64,000 nucleotides of DNA from the NCBI RefSeq assembly GCF_004297185.1, contig NZ_PGCL01000002.1:248001-312000 (forward strand), in the 5' to 3' direction. Below, piece after piece: positions 49,819 to 60,557 of the stretch. Below the pieces are notes generated by a model, which was not told where the DNA came from, made no database searches, and worked only from the letters and a program-made list of their open reading frames with translations. The position numbers and the translations under genes were made by a program. Position 1 is the first letter of the stretch; each line of letters begins with the position of its first letter. The DNA is from Methanofollis fontis (GTDB taxonomy: Archaea > Halobacteriota > Methanomicrobia > Methanomicrobiales > Methanofollaceae).

Positions 49819-49857
49819 TTGAACCGGGCGGTTCAGGGAATACCTCACCCGGTTCAA
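49819..49857. promoter_or_regulatory. Palindromic operator A upstream of the surface-protein/MacB operon
   Basis: TTGAACC-GGGC-GGTTCA at 49819-49835, with a second half-site GGTTCAA at 49851-49857, 21 bp from the first GGTTCA and thus on the same face of the helix. The TATA box AATATATCC begins near 49882. The same palindrome occurs at 57445 and 58366. Confidence 0.65.
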
Positions 49858-49967: not shown

Positions 49968-51239
49968 ATGAGACTGAATCTCTGGATTGTTCTTCTGATC
50001 GCCCTTCTGCTGCCTGCATCGGCGTGTGCGGCAGACGTGGATACCTATGACGCCGCTGCACAGGTGACCGTCACCGACATTGCGATCGATCCCGCTGTTC
50101 TGATGGAGGACGACACCGCCACGGTGACCGTCACCGTCCAGAATACCGGAACAGGAAGCGTGGCCATCTCCCGTGCCGCCCTCTATGGCACCGATATCTC
50201 GGTGCTCAACACCGGCACCTATGACTCGGTCGGGGAGATCGGTGCGGGCACCTCAAAGCAGTTCACCTTCACCGTCCGGGCCGACTGCGCCGACGGCATC
50301 TACTACCCCTCGTTCTACCTGGACTTCAGGGACGCCGGGAGCCTCCGCTGCCCGGTACCGGTGACGGTCCAGAGCAACGAGGTGCAGATCTCGGTGATGG
50401 ACATACCGGACGTCTTCACCGCTGATAAAAAGGAGACGGTCAGCCTGCTCGTCGGCAACCCGCGCCAGAACACGGTGAACGGCGTCACCCTCACCCCTTC
50501 GGGCGAGGGGATCGAGTGCACCCAGTCCTCGGTGTTCATCGGCAATCTGGCCCCCGACGGGTCGGCAGAGGTGAGTCTGGATGTTTCGGCCTCCCAATCC
50601 ACCGACCTCGTGCTGACCGTGACCTACCGGAACGGGATCAACACCCATACCGAGGTGCTCACCCTGCCGATCGAGGTGGGGATCTCCAAGACCGACCCGA
50701 TCATGGTGGTCAACAACCTGGAGGTGACCTCCAGCGGCAGTGGTTATGAGGTGAGCGGCGACGTGAGCAACGCCGGTCTTGAGGACGCCATGTCGGTGAT
50801 CGTCACGGTCGGCAGTCCGGCGAAGGCAACCGACCCCTATCCGATGTACGTGATCGGTTCCCTGGAGTCCGACGATTTCTCGAGCTTTGAGGTGACCTTC
50901 AGCGGGCAGGGGCTCACATCGGTCCCGATCGTCATCGACTACAAGGACAGAGACGGCAACGACTACCAGACCACCTATACACTGGACATGAACGGCGGGT
51001 TCGCATCGGCAGGGGACAACGCTGACGCCTCTTCCGTCCAGGCTTCCGGTTTCTCCGGGCCGGGCGGCGGCCGCGGCGGCATGATGATGCCCGGCATGTC
51101 GGGTGCGGGTTTTGCCGGACTCCCGCTGCTGCAGATCGCCGGCGGCATCGTCGTCGTCATCGCCGCCATCGTCGCCTGGAAGAAGGGGCTCTTCAGCCGC
51201 GCCCGCACCGCCCTGCAGAACCGCAGGAAGAAGGAGTGA
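49968..51239 (+). CDS. CARDB-like surface protein of an ABC export operon
   Basis: A 423-residue exported protein. A signal peptide (LLIALLLPASACA) is followed by repeated CARDB/COG1361-type beta domains (VTVTVQNTGTGSVAISRA). A Gly/Met-rich linker (GGGRGGMMMPGMSG) and a membrane helix with positive end follow. It precedes ABC ATPase and permease genes, in the place of an adaptor such as MacA. It may capture or hand over the exported substrate. SD GGAGGT precedes the start. Confidence 0.8.
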   Translation: MRLNLWIVLLIALLLPASACAADVDTYDAAAQVTVTDIAIDPAVLMEDDTATVTVTVQNTGTGSVAISRAALYGTDISVLNTGTYDSVGEIGAGTSKQFTFTVRADCADGIYYPSFYLDFRDAGSLRCPVPVTVQSNEVQISVMDIPDVFTADKKETVSLLVGNPRQNTVNGVTLTPSGEGIECTQSSVFIGNLAPDGSAEVSLDVSASQSTDLVLTVTYRNGINTHTEVLTLPIEVGISKTDPIMVVNNLEVTSSGSGYEVSGDVSNAGLEDAMSVIVTVGSPAKATDPYPMYVIGSLESDDFSSFEVTFSGQGLTSVPIVIDYKDRDGNDYQTTYTLDMNGGFASAGDNADASSVQASGFSGPGGGRGGMMMPGMSGAGFAGLPLLQIAGGIVVVIAAIVAWKKGLFSRARTALQNRRKKE

Positions 51240-51251
51240 GGGGAGGAGAGG

Positions 51252-51929
51252 ATGAGCAGTGCTCCGGTCATCAGCCTGAGGGATGTGACCCGGGTCTACT
51301 CCATTCCCGCCGGGGATGTGGTGGCCCTCGACGGCGTCTCTCTCGATATCATGGAGGGGGAGTTCGTGGCGATCATGGGGCCGTCGGGCTCCGGCAAGTC
51401 CACCCTGCTCAACCAGATCGGCAGCCTGGACGTCCCGACGTCGGGCGACCTCTTCATCGACGGGCGGAACATCAGGGAGATGAACGACGACGAACTCACC
51501 GACCTGCGGCGCGACACCATCGGCTACATCTTCCAGCGCTTCAACCTCATCCCCCTGCTCACCCTGCTTGAGAACGTGGAGTACCCGCTGATCCTGAAAT
51601 ACGGGCGGCGGGACACGAGCGGGCGACCGGCCGAACTGTTGCGGATGGTCGGGCTGGAGGGGTCGATCCTGGAGCATACCCCGAACGAGATCTCGGGCGG
51701 GCAGCAGCAGCGGGTGGCGATCGCCCGCGCCCTGGTGAACGACCCGCAGATCCTGCTCTGCGACGAACCCACCGGCAACCTGGACACAAAGACGGGCGAA
51801 CAGATCATGGAAATTCTCACGGATCTCAACCGGCAGGGTCGGACGATCATCATGGTCACCCATGACCCGGCAACGGCGGAGTATGCCCACCGCACGATCG
51901 TGATCAGGGATGGGAGGATTGTCTCATGA
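51252..51929 (+). CDS. MacB/LolD-type ABC ATPase
   Basis: A 225-residue ATPase. Walker A is GPSGSGKSTLL, the signature ISGGQQQRVAIARAL, and Walker B ILLCDEPTGNLD with THD switch. This set is typical of MacB, LolD and FtsE types. It lies 12 bp after the surface protein gene and overlaps the permease by 4 bp. Confidence 0.94.
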   Translation: MSSAPVISLRDVTRVYSIPAGDVVALDGVSLDIMEGEFVAIMGPSGSGKSTLLNQIGSLDVPTSGDLFIDGRNIREMNDDELTDLRRDTIGYIFQRFNLIPLLTLLENVEYPLILKYGRRDTSGRPAELLRMVGLEGSILEHTPNEISGGQQQRVAIARALVNDPQILLCDEPTGNLDTKTGEQIMEILTDLNRQGRTIIMVTHDPATAEYAHRTIVIRDGRIVS

Positions 51930-53140
51930 GCAACATCGTCTTCGACCTGGCGCTCAGGAATGTGAGGAGACATTTTCTCAGATCGGTGCTGGCCGCCATC
52001 GGGATCGTGATCGGTGTCATTGCCATCACCTCCCTTGGAATGATGGGGGCGAATATGACCCTCTCGATCACCGAGACGCTCTCGGCGAACAGCGATATCA
52101 TCAAGGTCACGCCTGACAGCGGCGGTGGCGGCGGGATGATGATGGGCCCAGGAGGGGGCAGCGGATCGGGCAGCGATGAGGACGAGTATATCGACGACGA
52201 TCAACTCAAGGACATCATGCAGGCCGCAAGCCCGAACACCGTCATCCCGGTGTATTCGGAGAGAGAGGATATCTCGGTCGGCGATAGGGAGGGCAGCGCA
52301 ACCATCTACGGCCTGGCCGAAGAGGACGTGCCGGTGTTTCTCACGGCGGCGAACGGCACCCTGCTGAAGAGCACCTCGAGCGCTCTCGTGGGGCCGGGGC
52401 TGGTCGAACGCTACGACATCAAGATCGGGAGCAGGATCGAGATCGGCGACGAGGATAGCGACGAGGGGACGAGCACCGTCCGTGTCGTCGGCATCCTCGA
52501 GGAGCGCGGGATGACCTATGATATCAGCACCGACAACGCCATCGTGGTCTCCGACCGCTGGTTCACCAGCTTCTTCGGGGGCGAGGGCGAGTACGATGAG
52601 GTGATCATCAAGATGGACGACATCACCGAGATCGAGGAGGTCGAGGAGGCGATCGACGATTCCCTCAACCGCAGGGATGACGAGGTCACCATCTCCGATG
52701 CATCCGGGATGCTGGACTCGATCACCTCCTCGATCACCACCCTGACCTCGATGATGACCGGGATTGGCGCCGTCTCCCTGCTGGTGGCGGCGGTGAGCAT
52801 CTTCAACGTCATGATGATGTCGGTGACCGAACGGATCCGCGAGATCGGTATCCTGAGGAGCATCGGCACCCGGCGAAGCATGGTGCGGCGGATGTTCCTC
52901 TACGAGGCCTTCATCCTGGGGGTCGTGGGTGCGGGCATCGGCGCCGTGCTGAGCATCTTCATCGGCTACCTGGTGGTCGTGGGCATGGTGGGGACGACGG
53001 CATATTTCTTCACCGTCGATAGCCTCATCTATGTCCCCTATGGGATGGCGATCGGGATCGTGATCTGCGTGCTCTCCGGCGTCTATCCGGCATGGAAGGC
53101 GGCGGACCTCGATCCCATACAGGCGCTGGCGACCGAGTGA
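51926..53140 (+). CDS. MacB/FtsX-type ABC permease
   Basis: A 404-residue permease. The N-terminal helix (about 20-42) is followed by a long extracellular domain with a Gly/Met-rich loop (GGGGMMMGPGGG) and an acidic stretch, and three C-terminal helices with the FtsX motif (TERIREIGILRSIGTRR). It forms a MacB-like exporter with the preceding ATPase. Substrates of such exporters include lipids, peptides and antibiotics. The Met-rich loop is shared with the surface protein of the operon. Confidence 0.9.
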   Translation: MSNIVFDLALRNVRRHFLRSVLAAIGIVIGVIAITSLGMMGANMTLSITETLSANSDIIKVTPDSGGGGGMMMGPGGGSGSGSDEDEYIDDDQLKDIMQAASPNTVIPVYSEREDISVGDREGSATIYGLAEEDVPVFLTAANGTLLKSTSSALVGPGLVERYDIKIGSRIEIGDEDSDEGTSTVRVVGILEERGMTYDISTDNAIVVSDRWFTSFFGGEGEYDEVIIKMDDITEIEEVEEAIDDSLNRRDDEVTISDASGMLDSITSSITTLTSMMTGIGAVSLLVAAVSIFNVMMMSVTERIREIGILRSIGTRRSMVRRMFLYEAFILGVVGAGIGAVLSIFIGYLVVVGMVGTTAYFFTVDSLIYVPYGMAIGIVICVLSGVYPAWKAADLDPIQALATE

Positions 53141-53206: not shown

Positions 53207-53995
53207 ATGAGGCAGGACGACGGGCGGCATACGCTGGTGGTGGAGAAGGACCAGGACTTCTTGGACGAACTCTCGGAATATCTCGATATTCTCGGGAACC
53301 CGACGAGGCTGCGGATCCTGAAATCCATCGAGCGCACGCCCAAGGACATCAGGACGATCTCACGGGAGATTGAGACCAGTTATGAGAACACCAAGAAGCA
53401 TGTCGATAAACTCCTCACCGTAGGGGTGATCCGGAAAGAGGCGGGCATGAGCGCCCCGACCGCCAAGGGCGTCCACCCGGTCTGGAAGTACTCGGTGATC
53501 CCGGGCGGTCTGGAGGCGATCATCCAGAACCTGGGGCTGTTCGGGAACCTGCAGGTCACCTTCGGCGATTCTGATCTGGGACCCCGGATCGAGGAGGTGC
53601 TGGGGCGCGTGGCTGGCGAGTTCGGGCCGAAGGGGGCGGTGGCGGTGGTGGTCGGCGGACCGCAGGATGGTCAGGTCTTCCCGATCCTGGGCGAGAGCGT
53701 TGCGGTCGGCCGCGCTGATCCGGCGGCTGAAGGGACGATCGATCCCGAGCGCGATATCGTGCTCTCCGACGATTACGCGGCGGTCACCCGGATCTCCCGC
53801 CCTCATTGCCGAATTTTCCGGGCAGGCGGCGGGTGGCAGGTCGAGGACCGCGGCAGCACCGGCGGGACGGCGGTGAACAGCACCCGCATCGGGACCGGGA
53901 TCCGGACAGGGCTCAGGGACGGCGATATCATCGATCTCGGGAAGGGCGTGAAGGGTGCCCGCCTGGTCTTTAAAGTGATGCGAGAGGAGGAATAA
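53207..53995 (+). CDS. Winged-helix regulator fused to an FHA domain
   Basis: About 262 residues. An ArsR-type winged helix occupies residues 20-95 (LGNPTRLRILKSIER and SREIETSYENTKKHVDKL). After a linker, an FHA domain (about 150-255) has VGRAD, ISRPHCRIF and DRGSTGGTAVNSTRI, the phosphothreonine-binding loop set. A DNA-binding protein with a phosphothreonine reader is a natural target of the Ser/Thr kinase encoded 120 bp downstream. ATG 53207 is preferred over an upstream TTG at 53177. Confidence 0.88.
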   Translation: MRQDDGRHTLVVEKDQDFLDELSEYLDILGNPTRLRILKSIERTPKDIRTISREIETSYENTKKHVDKLLTVGVIRKEAGMSAPTAKGVHPVWKYSVIPGGLEAIIQNLGLFGNLQVTFGDSDLGPRIEEVLGRVAGEFGPKGAVAVVVGGPQDGQVFPILGESVAVGRADPAAEGTIDPERDIVLSDDYAAVTRISRPHCRIFRAGGGWQVEDRGSTGGTAVNSTRIGTGIRTGLRDGDIIDLGKGVKGARLVFKVMREEE

Positions 53996-54118: not shown

Positions 54119-55768
54119 ATGCGTGGAGCGGTCTGGACGGTAGTGGTTCTGTTCTTCTCCATCCTTCTCTGCTCATCGCCGGTCATGGCCGCCGCAGAGG
54201 GGGGTGGAGGGGCCGGGGCGGCGTTCCGACAACACCAGGATGCCGACTCTCTGGCGATGTTCCAGTCACTCCTCGAGGGCAGGGAGAACCTGTCTGCCGC
54301 CCTGAACGAGACCCCCGGCAGGGCGGAATTCGATCCCGTGCGGACCCCTGGTGGCATGAACATCAGTGACCGGGATCCCGGGATCATGGGGCCGGCGATG
54401 GCCGTCGGCGGGGCGTATGTCATCTTTCTGGTCACCTTTGGCCTCTCGGCGCTCGCCCTGCTGCTGCTCTCCCGCTCAGGGGAGCGGTGGTCTGCAGGAT
54501 ACCGGTTCAGCGGCGGTCGTGCTGCTGCCCTTGCCCTCGGCTGCTGTTATGGGGCGCTTGCCCTGGCAATCGGGCTCCTCTCCATACCGGTCTTCTCGTT
54601 TTTCTCCACCTCGATGATGGTAGGGGATCTCGATCCGTGGAGTCTGATCGTGGCCTTCCTGATGGTCTATGGGCTGCTCTCCTCCCTCGTGCTGGCCTAT
54701 GGCAGCTTCGCCCGGCAGCCGCGGCTCCTGGTCCAGGCCTGCCATCCCCTCCCACCGCTCGCCTTCGCCGCTATCATGCTTGGCACGGGACTCCCGGCCT
54801 TCCGCGGGCTTGAGAACGATCCCCTGATTCTTGTGGTCGTGGTGCTCTCGGTGCTCCTGCCCTACGTCCACTTCCGACTCCTCTCACGGGTGCCGGCGGC
54901 GGAGGGCGACGAACCGCCCCGCCGGTCGGCGGTGACGACGGTGGTGGGTGACCTGCCGGCGACCGTCAGGAGCGCCGAGACCTTCCCCCCCGACCTCTCG
55001 GAGCGCTATATGGACCCGGAGATCGTCGGGCGGGGGGGAATGGCCCTGGTCTTCAGGGCACGGCGGCGGGAGGACGGCGAGACCGTGGCGGTGAAGGTGC
55101 CGATCCGCTACGACGAGGTGGCCGGGCACTGTTTTATGAAGGAGATGAACCTCTGGAAGGGGCTCAGCCATGAGAACATCGTGAAGGTGTACGCCTACAA
55201 CATTCTGCCGGTGCCCTTTGTCGAGATGGAGTATGTGGGGCCGTCGCTTGCAGAGGTCGAGACGCCCTGTCCCCCGGCGGAGGCGGTGCGGATCATCAGT
55301 GGGGTCGCCGCCGGCCTCGCCCATGCCCATGCGGGGGGGCTGGTCCACCGCGACATCAAGCCCGGCAACATCCTGATGGCCGCAGACGGCACCCCGAAGA
55401 TCACCGACTGGGGGCTTGGCAAGGACCTGACCGAGAGCGGGGAGACCCGCTTTGTCGCTTTTTCCCTGGATTATTCGGCACCGGAACAGATCTCGCCCGG
55501 TCGGTTCGGCCGCCCTGATGCCCGCACCGACATCTTCCAGACCGGCGTCGTGCTCTACGAACTCCTCACCGGGCGGTTGCCCTTTGCCGGCGAGGGTATT
55601 GGCGGGATCAGCGTCGCCATCCTCACTACCGAACCGACGCCTCCCTCTGCGGTCGATCCCGGCCTGGAGGCGTTCGACGCCGTCATCGCCCGCTGCCTGG
55701 CAAAAGAGCAGGACAGACGCTATCAGTCGATCGGGGAGTTTGTGTCTGATCTCGAGGGGCTCGGCTGA
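54119..55768 (+). CDS. Membrane Hanks-type Ser/Thr protein kinase
   Basis: A 549-residue kinase with a signal peptide, a short extracellular part, about five membrane helices (residues 90-270) and a cytoplasmic kinase domain (about 295-549). The glycine loop GRGGMALV begins at 304, and the ATP lysine is Lys326 in VAVKVP. HRDIKPGN contains catalytic Asp412. DWG replaces DFG at 430-432, and APEQ is present. Hanks kinases are uncommon in archaea. SD AAGGTGAT precedes the ATG. The likely targets are the FHA regulator upstream and other nearby proteins; PP2C at 59832 could reverse it. Confidence 0.92.
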   Translation: MRGAVWTVVVLFFSILLCSSPVMAAAEGGGGAGAAFRQHQDADSLAMFQSLLEGRENLSAALNETPGRAEFDPVRTPGGMNISDRDPGIMGPAMAVGGAYVIFLVTFGLSALALLLLSRSGERWSAGYRFSGGRAAALALGCCYGALALAIGLLSIPVFSFFSTSMMVGDLDPWSLIVAFLMVYGLLSSLVLAYGSFARQPRLLVQACHPLPPLAFAAIMLGTGLPAFRGLENDPLILVVVVLSVLLPYVHFRLLSRVPAAEGDEPPRRSAVTTVVGDLPATVRSAETFPPDLSERYMDPEIVGRGGMALVFRARRREDGETVAVKVPIRYDEVAGHCFMKEMNLWKGLSHENIVKVYAYNILPVPFVEMEYVGPSLAEVETPCPPAEAVRIISGVAAGLAHAHAGGLVHRDIKPGNILMAADGTPKITDWGLGKDLTESGETRFVAFSLDYSAPEQISPGRFGRPDARTDIFQTGVVLYELLTGRLPFAGEGIGGISVAILTTEPTPPSAVDPGLEAFDAVIARCLAKEQDRRYQSIGEFVSDLEGLG

Positions 55769-55910: not shown

Positions 55911-57065
55911 ATGCTTCAAGCCTACAAGTATTGGATGTATCCTTCTCAGGAGCAAGTCCCGCTCCTCATGAGTCACATCCATGCCTGTCGGTTTGTCTAC
56001 AACCATTCTCTGGAGCAGAAGATCCGGGCATACGAACAGGAAGGGCGAAAACTCTCCTGCTTTGACCTGAACACCCGTCTCCCTGCTCTAAAGGAAGAGC
56101 ACCCGTGGCTCAAGGAGGTCAACTCTCAATCACTCCAGAGTGCAAACAAGAACCTCGACAACGCTTTCACCCGGTTCTTCCGAGAGAAGAAAGGATTTCC
56201 GCGATTCAAGTCGAAGAAGAATCCGGTACAGTCCTTTCAGGTGCCTCAGCACTACCGCGTGGACTTTGAACGGAAGATAATCAGATTCCCGAAGATCGGT
56301 GAGGTTAAGACTGTCTTCCATCGGGTTTTCGCCGGGAAGATGAAGTATGCGACGGTTTCGGTGACTTCGACCGGGAAATGGTTTGTCAGTATTCTCGTTG
56401 ATGATGGAGCAGCAACGCCGGAACCCGCACCATTCACGCTGGATACCACCATCGGGATCGATGTCGGGTTGACGGATTTTGCAACCTTCTCTACTGGAGA
56501 GAAGATCGAGAACCCCCGATACCTGAAAAACTCCCTCCAGCGGTTGAAGGTGTTACAGCAGAGGGTGTCCCGAAAAATAAAAGGGTCGAAGAACCGGGAG
56601 AAGGCGATCCAGAGACTTGCCCGGTGCCATGAAAAGATTACCAACCAGAGAAACGATTTCCTGCACAAAATCTCTTTTCGAGTTGTGAGCGAGAACCAAG
56701 CCATTGCAGTCGAATCGTTGAATGTTGGCGGGATGATGAAGAACCATCATCTGGCACAGGGGATCGGAGATGTTTCGTGGTATACGTTCTTCACAATGCT
56801 GGAATACAAGTGTCGGAAGTACGGGAAAACTCTCCTGAAGATCGGGAGATTCGATCCTTCCTCAAAGATATGCAGTAACTGCGGGTATCTCAAGCAGGAT
56901 CTTGTCCTCTCTGACAGAGAATGGATCTGTCCTGACTGTGGTATTCATCACGACCGAGATGTCAACGCGGCGATCAATATCAAGAAGTTTGCCCTGCAAG
57001 AGCAGAACCTTGTTGGGGTATCAGGTGCGGAACGCGCCGTCGAGCTTGTGGACTCGCCTCAGTAG
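55911..57065 (+). CDS. tnpB: TnpB RNA-guided nuclease
   Basis: A 384-residue TnpB. The RuvC residues are all present: Asp184 in GIDVGLTDFA, Glu268 in AVESLNV and Asp350 in HDRDVNAAINI. The zinc knuckle CSNCGYL/CPDCG uses Cys321, 324, 340 and 343. Known relatives use an RNA made from the 3' end of the gene and the right end of the element, with the sequence just past the end as guide. Intact catalytic residues suggest it may be active. No transposase A gene is present. Confidence 0.93.
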   Translation: MLQAYKYWMYPSQEQVPLLMSHIHACRFVYNHSLEQKIRAYEQEGRKLSCFDLNTRLPALKEEHPWLKEVNSQSLQSANKNLDNAFTRFFREKKGFPRFKSKKNPVQSFQVPQHYRVDFERKIIRFPKIGEVKTVFHRVFAGKMKYATVSVTSTGKWFVSILVDDGAATPEPAPFTLDTTIGIDVGLTDFATFSTGEKIENPRYLKNSLQRLKVLQQRVSRKIKGSKNREKAIQRLARCHEKITNQRNDFLHKISFRVVSENQAIAVESLNVGGMMKNHHLAQGIGDVSWYTFFTMLEYKCRKYGKTLLKIGRFDPSSKICSNCGYLKQDLVLSDREWICPDCGIHHDRDVNAAINIKKFALQEQNLVGVSGAERAVELVDSPQ

Positions 57066-57322: not shown

Positions 57323-57444
57323 CACACGTCCTCAGACGGGTGACACACCATATTTTGTATTAATGGTATAGCCTGATTTCTCAAACACGCGGCCTTCGCG
57401 CGTACAGGGCAGGGAACCTGTCGCCTCCGACAGGGTGCAATGTC

Positions 57445-57461
57445 TGAACCTTCCGGTTCAA
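57445..57461. promoter_or_regulatory. Palindromic operator B
   Basis: TGAACC-TTCC-GGTTCAA, a perfect six-base inverted repeat. A weaker half GTTTCAA follows at 57484-57490. The AT-rich CATTATTTT near 57516 is a probable TATA box, about 65 bp away, and the next gene starts at 57574. Confidence 0.6.
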
Positions 57462-57573: not shown

Positions 57574-58014
57574 ATGCAGAAAAAAATTGCAATCCTGTTA
57601 TTCCTGAGTGTTATGGCCGTCTGGATCGTTCCTGCCTCTGCGGAGACCGAGGTGCAGACAATGCCGGTGCGCCCCGGATTCAATACCAGCATGATGGAGC
57701 CCGTCCTCTCCGACCTTGAGGGACAGGGCTATGACACCGCCGAAATGAGGGATCTCCTCCTGAAGGCAGAGGAGGCCCGTAGTAATGGCGATATGGAGAC
57801 CTCGCAGGCCATGATGGACCGGTTCCGCCGGGCGCTGCAGGACGCGGTCGCTGCGACCGGCATTGAAATAGATTATGCGCCCACCGGAAACCGACCCGAA
57901 GGCGCTGGAGATTTCGTGCCCGGAGCGGCTGCAACGCCTGCTGAGTCGCCCATATCCATTCTGCCGTGTGTGGGTGGTGCTGCCCTTGCATATGTCGCAT
58001 GGAGGAGGGTATGA
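57574..58014 (+). CDS. Secreted helical-module protein, single copy
   Basis: A 146-residue protein. A signal peptide (LLFLSVMAVWIVPASA) is followed by one helical module (EPVLSDLEGQGYDTAEMRDL, then the MDRFRRALQDAV part), and a C-terminal membrane anchor (about 125-144) ending WRRV. The module is the same as the repeats of the protein at 58504. It is preceded by operator B. ATGA overlap joins it to the next gene. The family is unknown to me; a helical hairpin is the likely fold. Confidence 0.7.
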   Translation: MQKKIAILLFLSVMAVWIVPASAETEVQTMPVRPGFNTSMMEPVLSDLEGQGYDTAEMRDLLLKAEEARSNGDMETSQAMMDRFRRALQDAVAATGIEIDYAPTGNRPEGAGDFVPGAAATPAESPISILPCVGGAALAYVAWRRV

Positions 58015-58334
58015 AGAAACAGTTCCGGGATATCCCGACCGGATGCCCCTCAGAATCAGGGGGGCCGGAGGTTGTCGAGGTGACGGCGCTTCCTGTTGCC
58101 GGGAAGGATCACTACACGCGTGTTCAGCGGAAGATCCTCTGCTATCTTACAGACTTGGCGGCAAACGGCAGATGTTATATCAAGGCGCGGCACGTTGCCT
58201 CTGATCTTGGACTGACGGCAAAGGAAGTCGGGATGAACCTTTCCATTCTTTCAGAGTCCTGCACTTCTCTTGAGATCCTGAAATGGAGTAATGGAAACGG
58301 CACCACATGGGCAATCAGCCGACGGCAGATCTGA
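58011..58334 (+). CDS. Small winged-helix protein (DUF7123-like), copy 2
   Basis: A 107-residue protein with HVASDLGLTAKEVGMNLSILSE and KWSNGNGTTWAISRR, clearly a paralogue of the protein at 45781. It has an added N-terminal tail of about 30 residues. SD GGAGG five bases before ATG 58011. Being in an operon with the secreted module protein, it may regulate this locus. Confidence 0.8.
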   Translation: MKKQFRDIPTGCPSESGGPEVVEVTALPVAGKDHYTRVQRKILCYLTDLAANGRCYIKARHVASDLGLTAKEVGMNLSILSESCTSLEILKWSNGNGTTWAISRRQI

Positions 58335-58365: not shown

Positions 58366-58383
58366 TTGAACCGGCTGGTTCAA
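58366..58383. promoter_or_regulatory. Palindromic operator C
   Basis: TTGAACCGGCTGGTTCAA, a perfect palindrome with seven-base arms. The TATA box GAATATATATCC begins near 58428, about 60 bp downstream of its centre. It controls the repeat protein gene at 58504. Confidence 0.65.
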
Positions 58384-58503: not shown

Positions 58504-59352
58504 ATTCAGACAAAAACACGGATAATCGGCATCACCGCCGTCCTCTGCATCTGTGCGCTGCTCGCCTCGCCGGTGAGCGCCGCCATGGAGGGTGCGATGG
58601 GTCAGCGTAATGCACCCGCCCCTATGGGTGACGGCGTCCTTGACGCCCTTGATGAGGCCGGCTACGATACCACCGAACTCCACGCCCTTGCCGAGACCGC
58701 CCGGACCGCTCACGAGAACGGCGACACCGACGCCGCCCGGGCCGCCATGGAGCAGTTCCGCGAGGCCGTCCAGACCGCCGCCGAAGAGGCCGGACTCGAA
58801 TGCCCTGCCATGAACGGTAACGGTGCGGGGCCGCGCACCGGCGTCCTTGACGCCCTCGACGAGGCCGGTTACGACACCACCGAACTCCGCGCCCTTGCAG
58901 AGACCGCCCGGAGCGCTCACGAGAACGGCGACACCGACGCCGCCCGGGCCGCCATGGAGCAGTTCCGCGAGGCCGTCCAGACCGCCGCCGAAGAGGCCGG
59001 ACTCGAGTGTCCTGCCATGAACGGTGACGGTGCGGGGCCGCGCACCGGCGTCCTTGACGCCCTCGACGAGGCCGGTTACGACACCACCGAACTCCGCGCC
59101 CTTGCAGAGACCGCCCGGAGCGCTCACGAGAACGGCGACACCGACGCCGCCCGGGCCGCCATGGAGCAGTTCCGCGAGGCCGTCCAGACCGCCGCCGAAG
59201 AGGCCGGACTCGAATGCCCTGCCATGAATGGCGACGGTGAGGGGCCGCACCAGAGAATGTTCCGGACCGCCGCTGAAGAGTCTGGACTCGAGCGCCCTGC
59301 CATGAACGGTGACGGTGCGGGTCAGCACCAGGGAATGGGCCGGAACGCATAG
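58504..59352 (+). CDS. Secreted protein with three tandem helical modules, probable AUU start
   Basis: About 282 residues. A signal peptide (IIGITAVLCICALLASPVSA) precedes three 69-residue repeats, each with LDEAGYDTTEL, AHENGDTDAARAAMEQF and AEEAGLECPAMNG, plus a partial fourth. No ATG or GTG fits the signal peptide. ATT 58504 is seven bases after GGAGG and aligns with the ATG of the paralogue at 57574 (ATG CAG versus ATT CAG), so it is taken as start. No membrane anchor is seen at the end, so it may be released. One cysteine per repeat could form disulphides. Confidence 0.7.
   Translation: MQTKTRIIGITAVLCICALLASPVSAAMEGAMGQRNAPAPMGDGVLDALDEAGYDTTELHALAETARTAHENGDTDAARAAMEQFREAVQTAAEEAGLECPAMNGNGAGPRTGVLDALDEAGYDTTELRALAETARSAHENGDTDAARAAMEQFREAVQTAAEEAGLECPAMNGDGAGPRTGVLDALDEAGYDTTELRALAETARSAHENGDTDAARAAMEQFREAVQTAAEEAGLECPAMNGDGEGPHQRMFRTAAEESGLERPAMNGDGAGQHQGMGRNA
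58634..59254 (+). repeat. Three tandem 207-bp coding repeats
   Basis: Copies begin at 58634, 58841 and 59048, each with GCGTCCTTGA. The second and third are identical for roughly the first 165 bases, and the first differs at only a few sites. A partial copy follows to about 59335. Such identity implies recent duplication or gene conversion. Confidence 0.9.
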
Positions 59353-59606: not shown

Positions 59607-59827
59607 TGGGGTGCATGCAGGTCACTCAACGGTCATTACAACAATCCAGAGATGCGTTTTTCGGGAGCGTTCAGGCGCTCTATGCCGCATACCGGGCAGC
59701 AGTGCCTGAACAGGCAATTGAACGTGACGATGAGGGGATCCTTGCCGCCCTCGCAATAGAACTGGGATATGGCGGGTTCAGCCGGAAACATGTCGAACAT
59801 CCTGACCTTCAGATATCAGAGGGATAA
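59606..59827 (+). CDS. 73-residue protein in the phosphatase operon
   Basis: Helical protein with FFGSVQALYAAYRAAVPEQA. It lies 4 bp before the phosphatase start and is coupled to the preceding small gene. I do not recognise it. AAGGAG precedes ATG 59606. A later ATG at 59615 is also possible. Confidence 0.5.
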   Translation: MGCMQVTQRSLQQSRDAFFGSVQALYAAYRAAVPEQAIERDDEGILAALAIELGYGGFSRKHVEHPDLQISEG

Positions 59828-59831
59828 AAAA

Positions 59832-60557
59832 ATGGGCCGCTATGATATCTGCGGGATGACGCATGCCGGACTGAAGGGCTACAACGAGGATGCCTATACC
59901 ATTGTCGAGATCGGGAACGTCTGTCTGCTCGCGGTCGCTGATGGGGTGGGGGGGTGTGCCGGAGGTGAACGCGCCGCCCGCATCGCCATCGAGACTGTTT
60001 CGTCATCTTTTACGAGGCGATGCCATGAGGGGATGGATGCGGAGGATGTGGCGGACCTCCTCTATAATGCCTTCCACGAGGCCGACCGGAGGATCAGGGC
60101 GGAACAGCACCGTTATGGAAAGATGGGCACGACTCTTGTGGCCGCCGTGATCAGCGGGCGGCGGGTGGTGATCGCCAACTGCGGTGACAGTCGGGCGTTC
60201 ATTGCAGGAAAAACGATCGTGTTCCGGACACAGGAGCACTCGTTTGTCAATACCCTTCTCCAGAGCGGGTCCATCCGACCGGAGGAGGCGGAAGACCATC
60301 CCCTGCGATCGGTGATTACCCATGCGCTGGGCGTGAATGTGCGTGTGGACCTCTATGAAGAGGAACTGGGACGGGAGAGGGTGCTGGTGCTCGCAAGTGA
60401 CGGTCTCTCCGGCAGAACGGCCGCGGAGATCTGTGCAGGCGACCTTTCCCTCACGAGCGAGGAGTTGACGCGCCGCCTCATGGAGGGGGCGCTCCTGACG
60501 GGCGATGACGATGTGACTGTCGTTTCGTTCAGGGATCGGGCACTCTTTTTCACCTGA
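59832..60557 (+). CDS. PP2C-type Ser/Thr protein phosphatase
   Basis: A 241-residue metal-dependent phosphatase. The metal-binding motifs are GYNEDAY, VADGVGG, GTTLVAAV, NCGDSRAF, ASDGLSG and DDDVTVVSF, in normal order. No membrane part. It is the natural antagonist of the Hanks kinase encoded 4 kb upstream, and both frame the secreted-module genes. It overlaps the next gene tail to tail by 8 bp. Confidence 0.93.
   Translation: MGRYDICGMTHAGLKGYNEDAYTIVEIGNVCLLAVADGVGGCAGGERAARIAIETVSSSFTRRCHEGMDAEDVADLLYNAFHEADRRIRAEQHRYGKMGTTLVAAVISGRRVVIANCGDSRAFIAGKTIVFRTQEHSFVNTLLQSGSIRPEEAEDHPLRSVITHALGVNVRVDLYEEELGRERVLVLASDGLSGRTAAEICAGDLSLTSEELTRRLMEGALLTGDDDVTVVSFRDRALFFT

Follow-up and report, generated by a model that had tools for sequence, protein, structure and literature searches.

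A predicted kinase-to-promoter switch built on a winged-helix-FHA regulator in Methanomicrobiales

By what route archaeal Ser/Thr kinases act on genes is largely open. Most of the archaeal genomes analysed in a 2019 paper contained no FHA proteins, and studies up to that time covered just two archaeal FHA proteins, which belong to a single Thermoprotei family (PMC6509490). The question is raised again by an open reading frame in 64,000 nucleotides of Methanofollis fontis DNA (hereafter the window; Table 1), for which an earlier note had claimed a DNA-binding domain fused to an FHA domain, a kinase as the next gene and, through both, a one-protein link from Ser/Thr kinase to transcription. Does the protein have this architecture, is it tied to the kinase, and to which genes could it carry a signal?

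Table 1. Positions of the genes, domains and candidate sites in the window, counted from its first letter
Feature	Position	Strand	Basis
Candidate operator TTGAACCGGGCGGTTCAG, ~46 bp before the TATA-like AATATATC (49882), upstream of the CARDB-ABC operon	49819..49836	+	
Exported protein with a CARDB domain, heading the predicted target operon	49968..51239	+	domain match; candidate operator upstream
ABC transporter ATPase, CARDB operon	51252..51929	+	domain match
FtsX/MacB-type permease, CARDB operon	51926..53140	+	domain match
wHTH-FHA regulator, 262 aa, single copy in this genome	53207..53995	+	profile matches and predicted fold
Codon of T9, invariant Thr of the disordered N-terminal tail, predicted phospho-acceptor	53231..53233	+	alignment and model
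Winged helix, ArsR fold	53252..53536	+	isolated-domain fold, fold matches and conservation
FHA beta-sandwich with GR (168-169), S197, H200 and S217-T218	53633..53980	+	profile, model, alignment and fold match
Membrane Ser/Thr kinase, 549 aa, ~6 predicted membrane segments, C-terminal kinase domain	54119..55768	+	PF00069 and conserved residues
Kinase juxtamembrane TTVV motif, resembling the regulator tail motif	54935..54946	+	sequence comparison
Candidate operator CTGAACCTTCCGGTTCAA, ~46 bp before a TATA-like element, upstream of 57574-58014	57444..57461	+	
Small exported protein carrying one GYDT-type unit, predicted target	57574..58014	+	
Candidate operator TTGAACCGGCTGGTTCAA (perfect), ~46 bp before the TATA-like ATATATAT (58430), upstream of the exported repeat protein	58366..58383	+	
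Exported protein with three GYDT-type repeats, predicted target; start uncertain (ATT at 58504 after GGAGG)	58504..59352	+	
PP2C phosphatase, sole PP2C_2 match in the genome, likely eraser	59769..60557	+	profile match

The fusion is confirmed by a domain profile, a predicted winged helix and fold matches. The Pfam FHA profile (PF00498) matches residues 167-245 of the product with an E-value of 3.2e-13 and 50.4 bits against a cut-off of 20.7, and the N-terminal helix-turn-helix matches (HVO_A0114, HTH_20, HTH_5) all fall under their own cut-offs. Structure prediction of both domains, which had been suggested as a check, gave a winged helix and an FHA beta-sandwich: in an AlphaFold2 model built on 35 homologues, a disordered tail (residues 1-14) is followed by the winged helix (16-97), two short helices (101-108 and 124-135) and the sandwich (143-258). 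The whole model has a mean pLDDT of 75.8 and a pTM of 0.58, values that do not fix how the domains stand relative to one another. The sandwich matched the FHA domains of GarA, OdhI, DgcB, EmbR and ArnA in Foldseek with E-values of 1e-7 to 1e-5 (3.5e-7 for GarA). When folded alone, the winged helix reached a pLDDT of 82.5 and matched ArsR-fold proteins, with the Pyrococcus heat-shock regulator 2p4w at the top (E 2.5e-5); its recognition helix spans residues 59-72, where Y59, N61, T62, K64 and H65 are invariant or nearly so in the homologue alignment. The label ArsR-like thus holds for the fold, but not in the sense of an ArsR metalloregulator: HTH_5, HTH_20 and HTH_metalloreg scored 18.3, 19.3 and 21.4 against cut-offs of 22, 27 and 55, the winged helix of the window protein contains no Cys, and an ArsR metal sensor was rejected on these grounds.

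A genome search found a single gene of the regulator type in M. fontis, whose FHA domain is also the sole one detected there. A match to the fusion is present in 47 of 61 genomes of relatives. At E up to 0.001, the class gives matches in 172 of its 232 genomes, a number of them weak and partial; in the phylum, the count is 64 of 393 at E up to 1e-12, all inside the order Methanomicrobiales. It is absent from most genomes of family f6. A short-peptide-pattern scan of 84,980 species genomes, which detects close relatives only, returned full-length relatives solely from Methanomicrobiales or euryarchaeal records. The search in other archaea that had been proposed thus finds the fusion to be widespread in Methanomicrobiales and not rare, and its recurrence across the samples of relatives, class and phylum and in the species scan led us to reject a one-off gene fusion or a chance reading frame. 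That the architecture is not commonly described in archaea, as had also been stated, holds within the open-licence literature that was searched (PMC6509490, PMC12852372), where we found no paper joining methanogen, FHA domain and ArsR, an absence that is weak evidence.

The next gene on the same strand is indeed a kinase gene, with a PF00069 match at E 7e-37. Its putative catalytic set consists of K326, E342, H410-R411-D412, N417 and a DWG at 430-432; over 82 paired kinases, K326, E342, H410, D412, N417 and D430-W431-G432 are 100% conserved and R411 89%, and this conservation of the Lys, HRD and DxG residues marks the product as a predicted Hanks-type Ser/Thr kinase. All 82 have DWG where DFG is usual. 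A kinase gene lies downstream of the regulator, on the same strand and at most 3 kb away, in 84 of the 85 loci that have more than 3 kb of sequence on that side, some of these loci being near-duplicates of one another; at L114, the kinase is 4.9 kb away and a second, divergent regulator match stands between the two (G050:C23:18032-18775). The kinase frame often begins within a few bases of the regulator stop, start and stop often overlap, and the N-terminal parts of the kinases are variable, running from ~95 to 600 aa and mostly containing several membrane segments. Regulator and kinase genes duplicate together: their distances are correlated (Mantel r 0.81, with 0 of 2000 permutations as high), and the partners of paralogues are concordant in 519 of 790 comparisons versus 356 by chance, although shared descent among the loci makes naive p-values too small. 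The M. fontis genome holds two Hanks-type kinases above the family cut-off, and f6 genomes hold one or none, G016 excepted. The PP2C phosphatase, which is likely to erase the kinase mark, is encoded directly upstream of the regulator in eight other loci and just downstream of it in L114.

Across 89 distinct regulator homologues, the Arg, Ser and His of the FHA site, whose loss the earlier note would have counted against its own reading, are retained: R169 and H200 are invariant (89/89), as are G168, S217 and N224, and residue 197 is Ser or Thr in 87. Residue 218 is Thr or Ser in 84, and in 84 residue 219, usually the Asn of the STNGT loop, is Gly, which could make phosphothreonine binding weaker or altered. 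In the N-terminal tail, T9 is Thr in all 89 homologues, the other tail positions averaging 2.6 bits of entropy; the residue after it is Leu, Ile or Val in 87, and residues 1-10 have a mean pLDDT of 33 in the AlphaFold2 model. A similar motif lies next to the membrane in the kinase, where T-[ILV]-[ILVF] occurs in 47 of the 82 paired kinases versus 5.9 expected by shuffling, and versions with Ser, Ala, Pro or Asp/Glu occur 4-6 times. This short motif as written is missing from 35 of the 82, and one of six readable regulator-unlinked kinases matches it, apparently inside the kinase domain, six being too few for a firm control. In GarA, OdhI and DgcB, a Thr of a short N-terminal tail is bound, once phosphorylated, by the FHA domain of the same protein (cf. 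the titles of 6hc1 and 2kb3), and the FHA domain of GarA reads phosphosites made by PknB. By analogy, T9 and the juxtamembrane motif suggest a phospho-tail bound by the FHA domain, as in GarA/OdhI, and we infer that the kinase may phosphorylate both T9 and the juxtamembrane site and that the FHA domain may read both, much as GarA does with PknB.

Which DNA might the regulator bind? A palindrome, TTGAACC-N4-GGTTCAA, emerged from aligned upstream regions, in which it precedes two kinds of gene: the CARDB-ABC operon in Methanocalculus and the Methanofollis group, and the regulator in Methanoregulaceae. The window has matches at 49819, 57444 and 58366, with 1, 1 and 0 mismatches; when up to one mismatch was allowed, the whole genome (2.36 Mb) yielded four sites, of which three fall in the 8.6 kb around the module, and the reversed control yielded 0. 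Over 61 genomes, 75 sites were counted, and 18 of them have a regulator gene within 6 kb, versus 0.46 expected; ~6 of these 18 belong to the motif discovery set and ~12 are independent. Near regulators, a spacer of 4 gave 41 hits and other spacers 0-8, and palindromes with other spacers and scrambled palindromes gave few hits, except for CTCAAG-N3-CTTGAG with 15. In the phylum sample, perfect sites occur in 22 of the 64 fusion-bearing genomes versus 4 of the 329 others, and 42 fusion-bearing genomes have no perfect site, although sites with one mismatch exist. The palindrome is therefore a strong candidate for an operator, and it is location and co-occurrence that tie it to the winged helix of the regulator. 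At one locus (L103:6910-7046), three operator-like palindromes follow one another in the interval that separates the regulator gene from the kinase gene. A block around CAACCTTCATCA, which differs from the palindrome, is conserved upstream of the regulator in nearly all of the nine Methanoculleus-group regions compared for it (L023, L024, L034, L107, L113, L122, L123, L082 and L121).

Exported-like reading frames, called by a simple hydrophobicity rule, start 15-220 bp downstream of 28 of 51 perfect-core sites, as opposed to 7-8% of random positions. Small exported proteins with a GYDT-type unit are encoded at 57574 and 58504 in the window and also elsewhere, for example at L067, L070, L072, L178 and L183, and a Pfam scan of eight predicted target proteins gave no names beyond one DsbD_2 and one serpin. 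From this list of targets, it is probable that the kinase-regulator pair controls envelope proteins. TATA-like elements cluster ~6, 25 and 47 bp after the palindrome, with a preferred period near 21 bp, over 14 promoter families that we chose and scanned by our own rule, and all three sites in the window have the long spacing. Since the candidate operators often stand at one of these distances before a TATA-like element, an activator is favoured.

We put at about 0.7 the probability that the regulator and the membrane kinase form a paired signal system, in which the kinase marks T9, the FHA domain binds the tail and the regulator dimer activates genes for exported proteins. The variable N-terminal part of the kinase would detect a cell-surface condition, the kinase would autophosphorylate near the membrane, and the regulator would dock on it through its FHA domain and be phosphorylated at T9. 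Binding of the phospho-tail by the FHA domain, within one chain or between two, may then change dimerisation or expose the winged helix, and the dimer would bind the palindrome upstream of TATA boxes, activating the genes for exported proteins and the MacB-type transporter, with the PP2C phosphatase resetting the switch. The pair is best read as a Ser/Thr counterpart, by analogy, of a two-component system, with one kinase and one regulator. In both, a sensor-kinase gene lies beside the gene of a DNA-binding regulator, the two are paired and co-duplicated, and the sensor part is variable, but two-component systems use a histidine kinase and a receiver where we find a Ser/Thr kinase and an FHA domain, and the likeness is one of analogy, not homology. 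The one-protein link from Ser/Thr kinase to transcription can now be regarded as a supported prediction, given the domain folds, the kinase beside nearly every regulator, the co-duplication and the candidate operators. We also lean slightly towards an order-wide archaeal system of dedicated kinase/FHA-winged-helix pairs with a phospho-tail switch, an operator of 18 bp and exported proteins as the regulon.

The role proposed for T9 has to be weighed against other uses of the FHA domain. If the domain merely recruited the regulator to the phosphorylated kinase, DNA binding would be controlled by sequestration and T9 would not be a phosphosite; such docking requires just the kinase's own phosphosites, which the juxtamembrane motif fits, but it leaves unexplained an invariant T9 in a disordered and otherwise variable tail, and we consider it unlikely. 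It is far less probable still that the FHA domain is degenerate, no longer reading phosphothreonine and serving for dimerisation. The replacement of the STNGT Asn by Gly would agree with such a loss, yet the Arg, Ser/Thr, His and loop Ser/Thr are kept in nearly all homologues, and ArnA, which at a neighbouring position carries Arg-147 where an Asn is usual, reportedly recognises phosphothreonine in ArnB all the same (PMC6509490, PMC12852372).

On the side of the DNA, the regulator could also be a repressor, its unphosphorylated dimer sitting on the operator until phosphorylated T9 closes the protein and releases it. ArsR-fold proteins usually repress, as do the relatives Phr (2p4w) and CzrA, and in one promoter class only ~6 bp separate the palindrome from the TATA-like element, a position in which it could obstruct TBP/TFB. 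Repression nevertheless seems somewhat unlikely, as most promoter families have the palindrome ~25 or 47 bp upstream of TATA, at spacings that differ by about two helical turns and suit contact with the basal machinery. Doubtful, too, is the idea that the palindrome belongs to another regulator and lies near the module through shared regulation, independently of the wHTH-FHA protein: the link to this protein is not direct, and perfect sites in the absence of a strong fusion match are seen in G089, which has three, and in three genomes from outside the order, but the sites cluster at regulator loci, perfect sites co-occur with the fusion, and the palindrome stands directly before the regulator gene at L040, L047, L090 and L098.

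If activation through a phosphorylated tail is the right reading, the closest known logic would be that of EmbR and PknH. In Mycobacterium tuberculosis, EmbR is phosphorylated on Thr by the membrane Ser/Thr kinase PknH and dephosphorylated by MstP, and its phosphorylation stimulates promoter binding (PMC4601284). Both transcription factors combine a winged helix with a C-terminal FHA domain and have a membrane Ser/Thr kinase as partner, but EmbR is of the SARP/OmpR type with a central BTA domain, whereas the regulator described here has an ArsR fold, no BTA domain and a predicted conserved phospho-tail. Membership of the EmbR type was rejected because the BTA domain is absent by Pfam and in the model, although the two proteins may act in broadly the same way; a PDB search gave no sequence match of the regulator to EmbR, and the EmbR structure 2ff4 compares with the whole regulator at an rmsd of 16 A (Foldseek). 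GarA, OdhI and the Bdellovibrio protein DgcB have the FHA folds closest to that of the regulator; unlike it, GarA and OdhI act on enzymes and lack a DNA-binding domain, and the tail sequences differ.

Among archaeal FHA proteins, an earlier report on S. tokodaii St0829, cited in PMC6509490, is said to describe an interaction with a promoter. The ArnA-ArnB pair of Sulfolobales, together with the ArnC kinase, resembles the present case in that an FHA protein of an archaeon belongs to a kinase/phosphatase pathway that alters gene expression (PMC6509490, PMC12852372, PMC10470591). SisArnA was described in 2023 as a global DNA damage response repressor (PMC10470591), and a 2026 paper saw nothing pointing to a direct contact of ArnA or ArnB with DNA (PMC12852372). 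ArnA differs in having a zinc finger in place of the winged helix and in reading ArnB; we rejected membership of its family for the regulator, which has a winged helix in that place and no Cys cluster. The locus looks like a complete archaeal signal-to-gene switch of a kind for which we found no archaeal description in the open-licence literature. A link from a kinase to an FHA regulator is itself already known, and what would be new is its construction from archaeal parts, with a predicted phospho-tail and a predicted operator. With a phosphosite, a kinase-regulator pair and an operator sequence named, the whole chain is testable with purified proteins. If true, Methanomicrobiales, a major order of methanogens, use Ser/Thr kinases as bacteria use histidine kinases, and the exported-protein genes linked to the operator would point to a methanogen response to cell-surface stress, an archaeal counterpart of the envelope-stress two-component systems that would be built from eukaryote-like parts.

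Some details of the target region in the window may be added. The homologue of the exported repeat protein in L065 begins with Met (MTTKTRIAGI); the ATT that the window has at this point may be a non-standard start, or else the start codon has been lost, and with the listed ATG at 58291 the operator and the TATA element would fall inside the reading frame. Between the two predicted GYDT-type targets, the stretch 58012-58334, in the frame of the 57966-58334 reading frame and with a probable start near 58012, has the look of a small winged-helix protein. A 384-aa reading frame (55911-57065) that separates the kinase gene from the operator-bearing genes resembles IS605-type OrfB/TnpB by eye.
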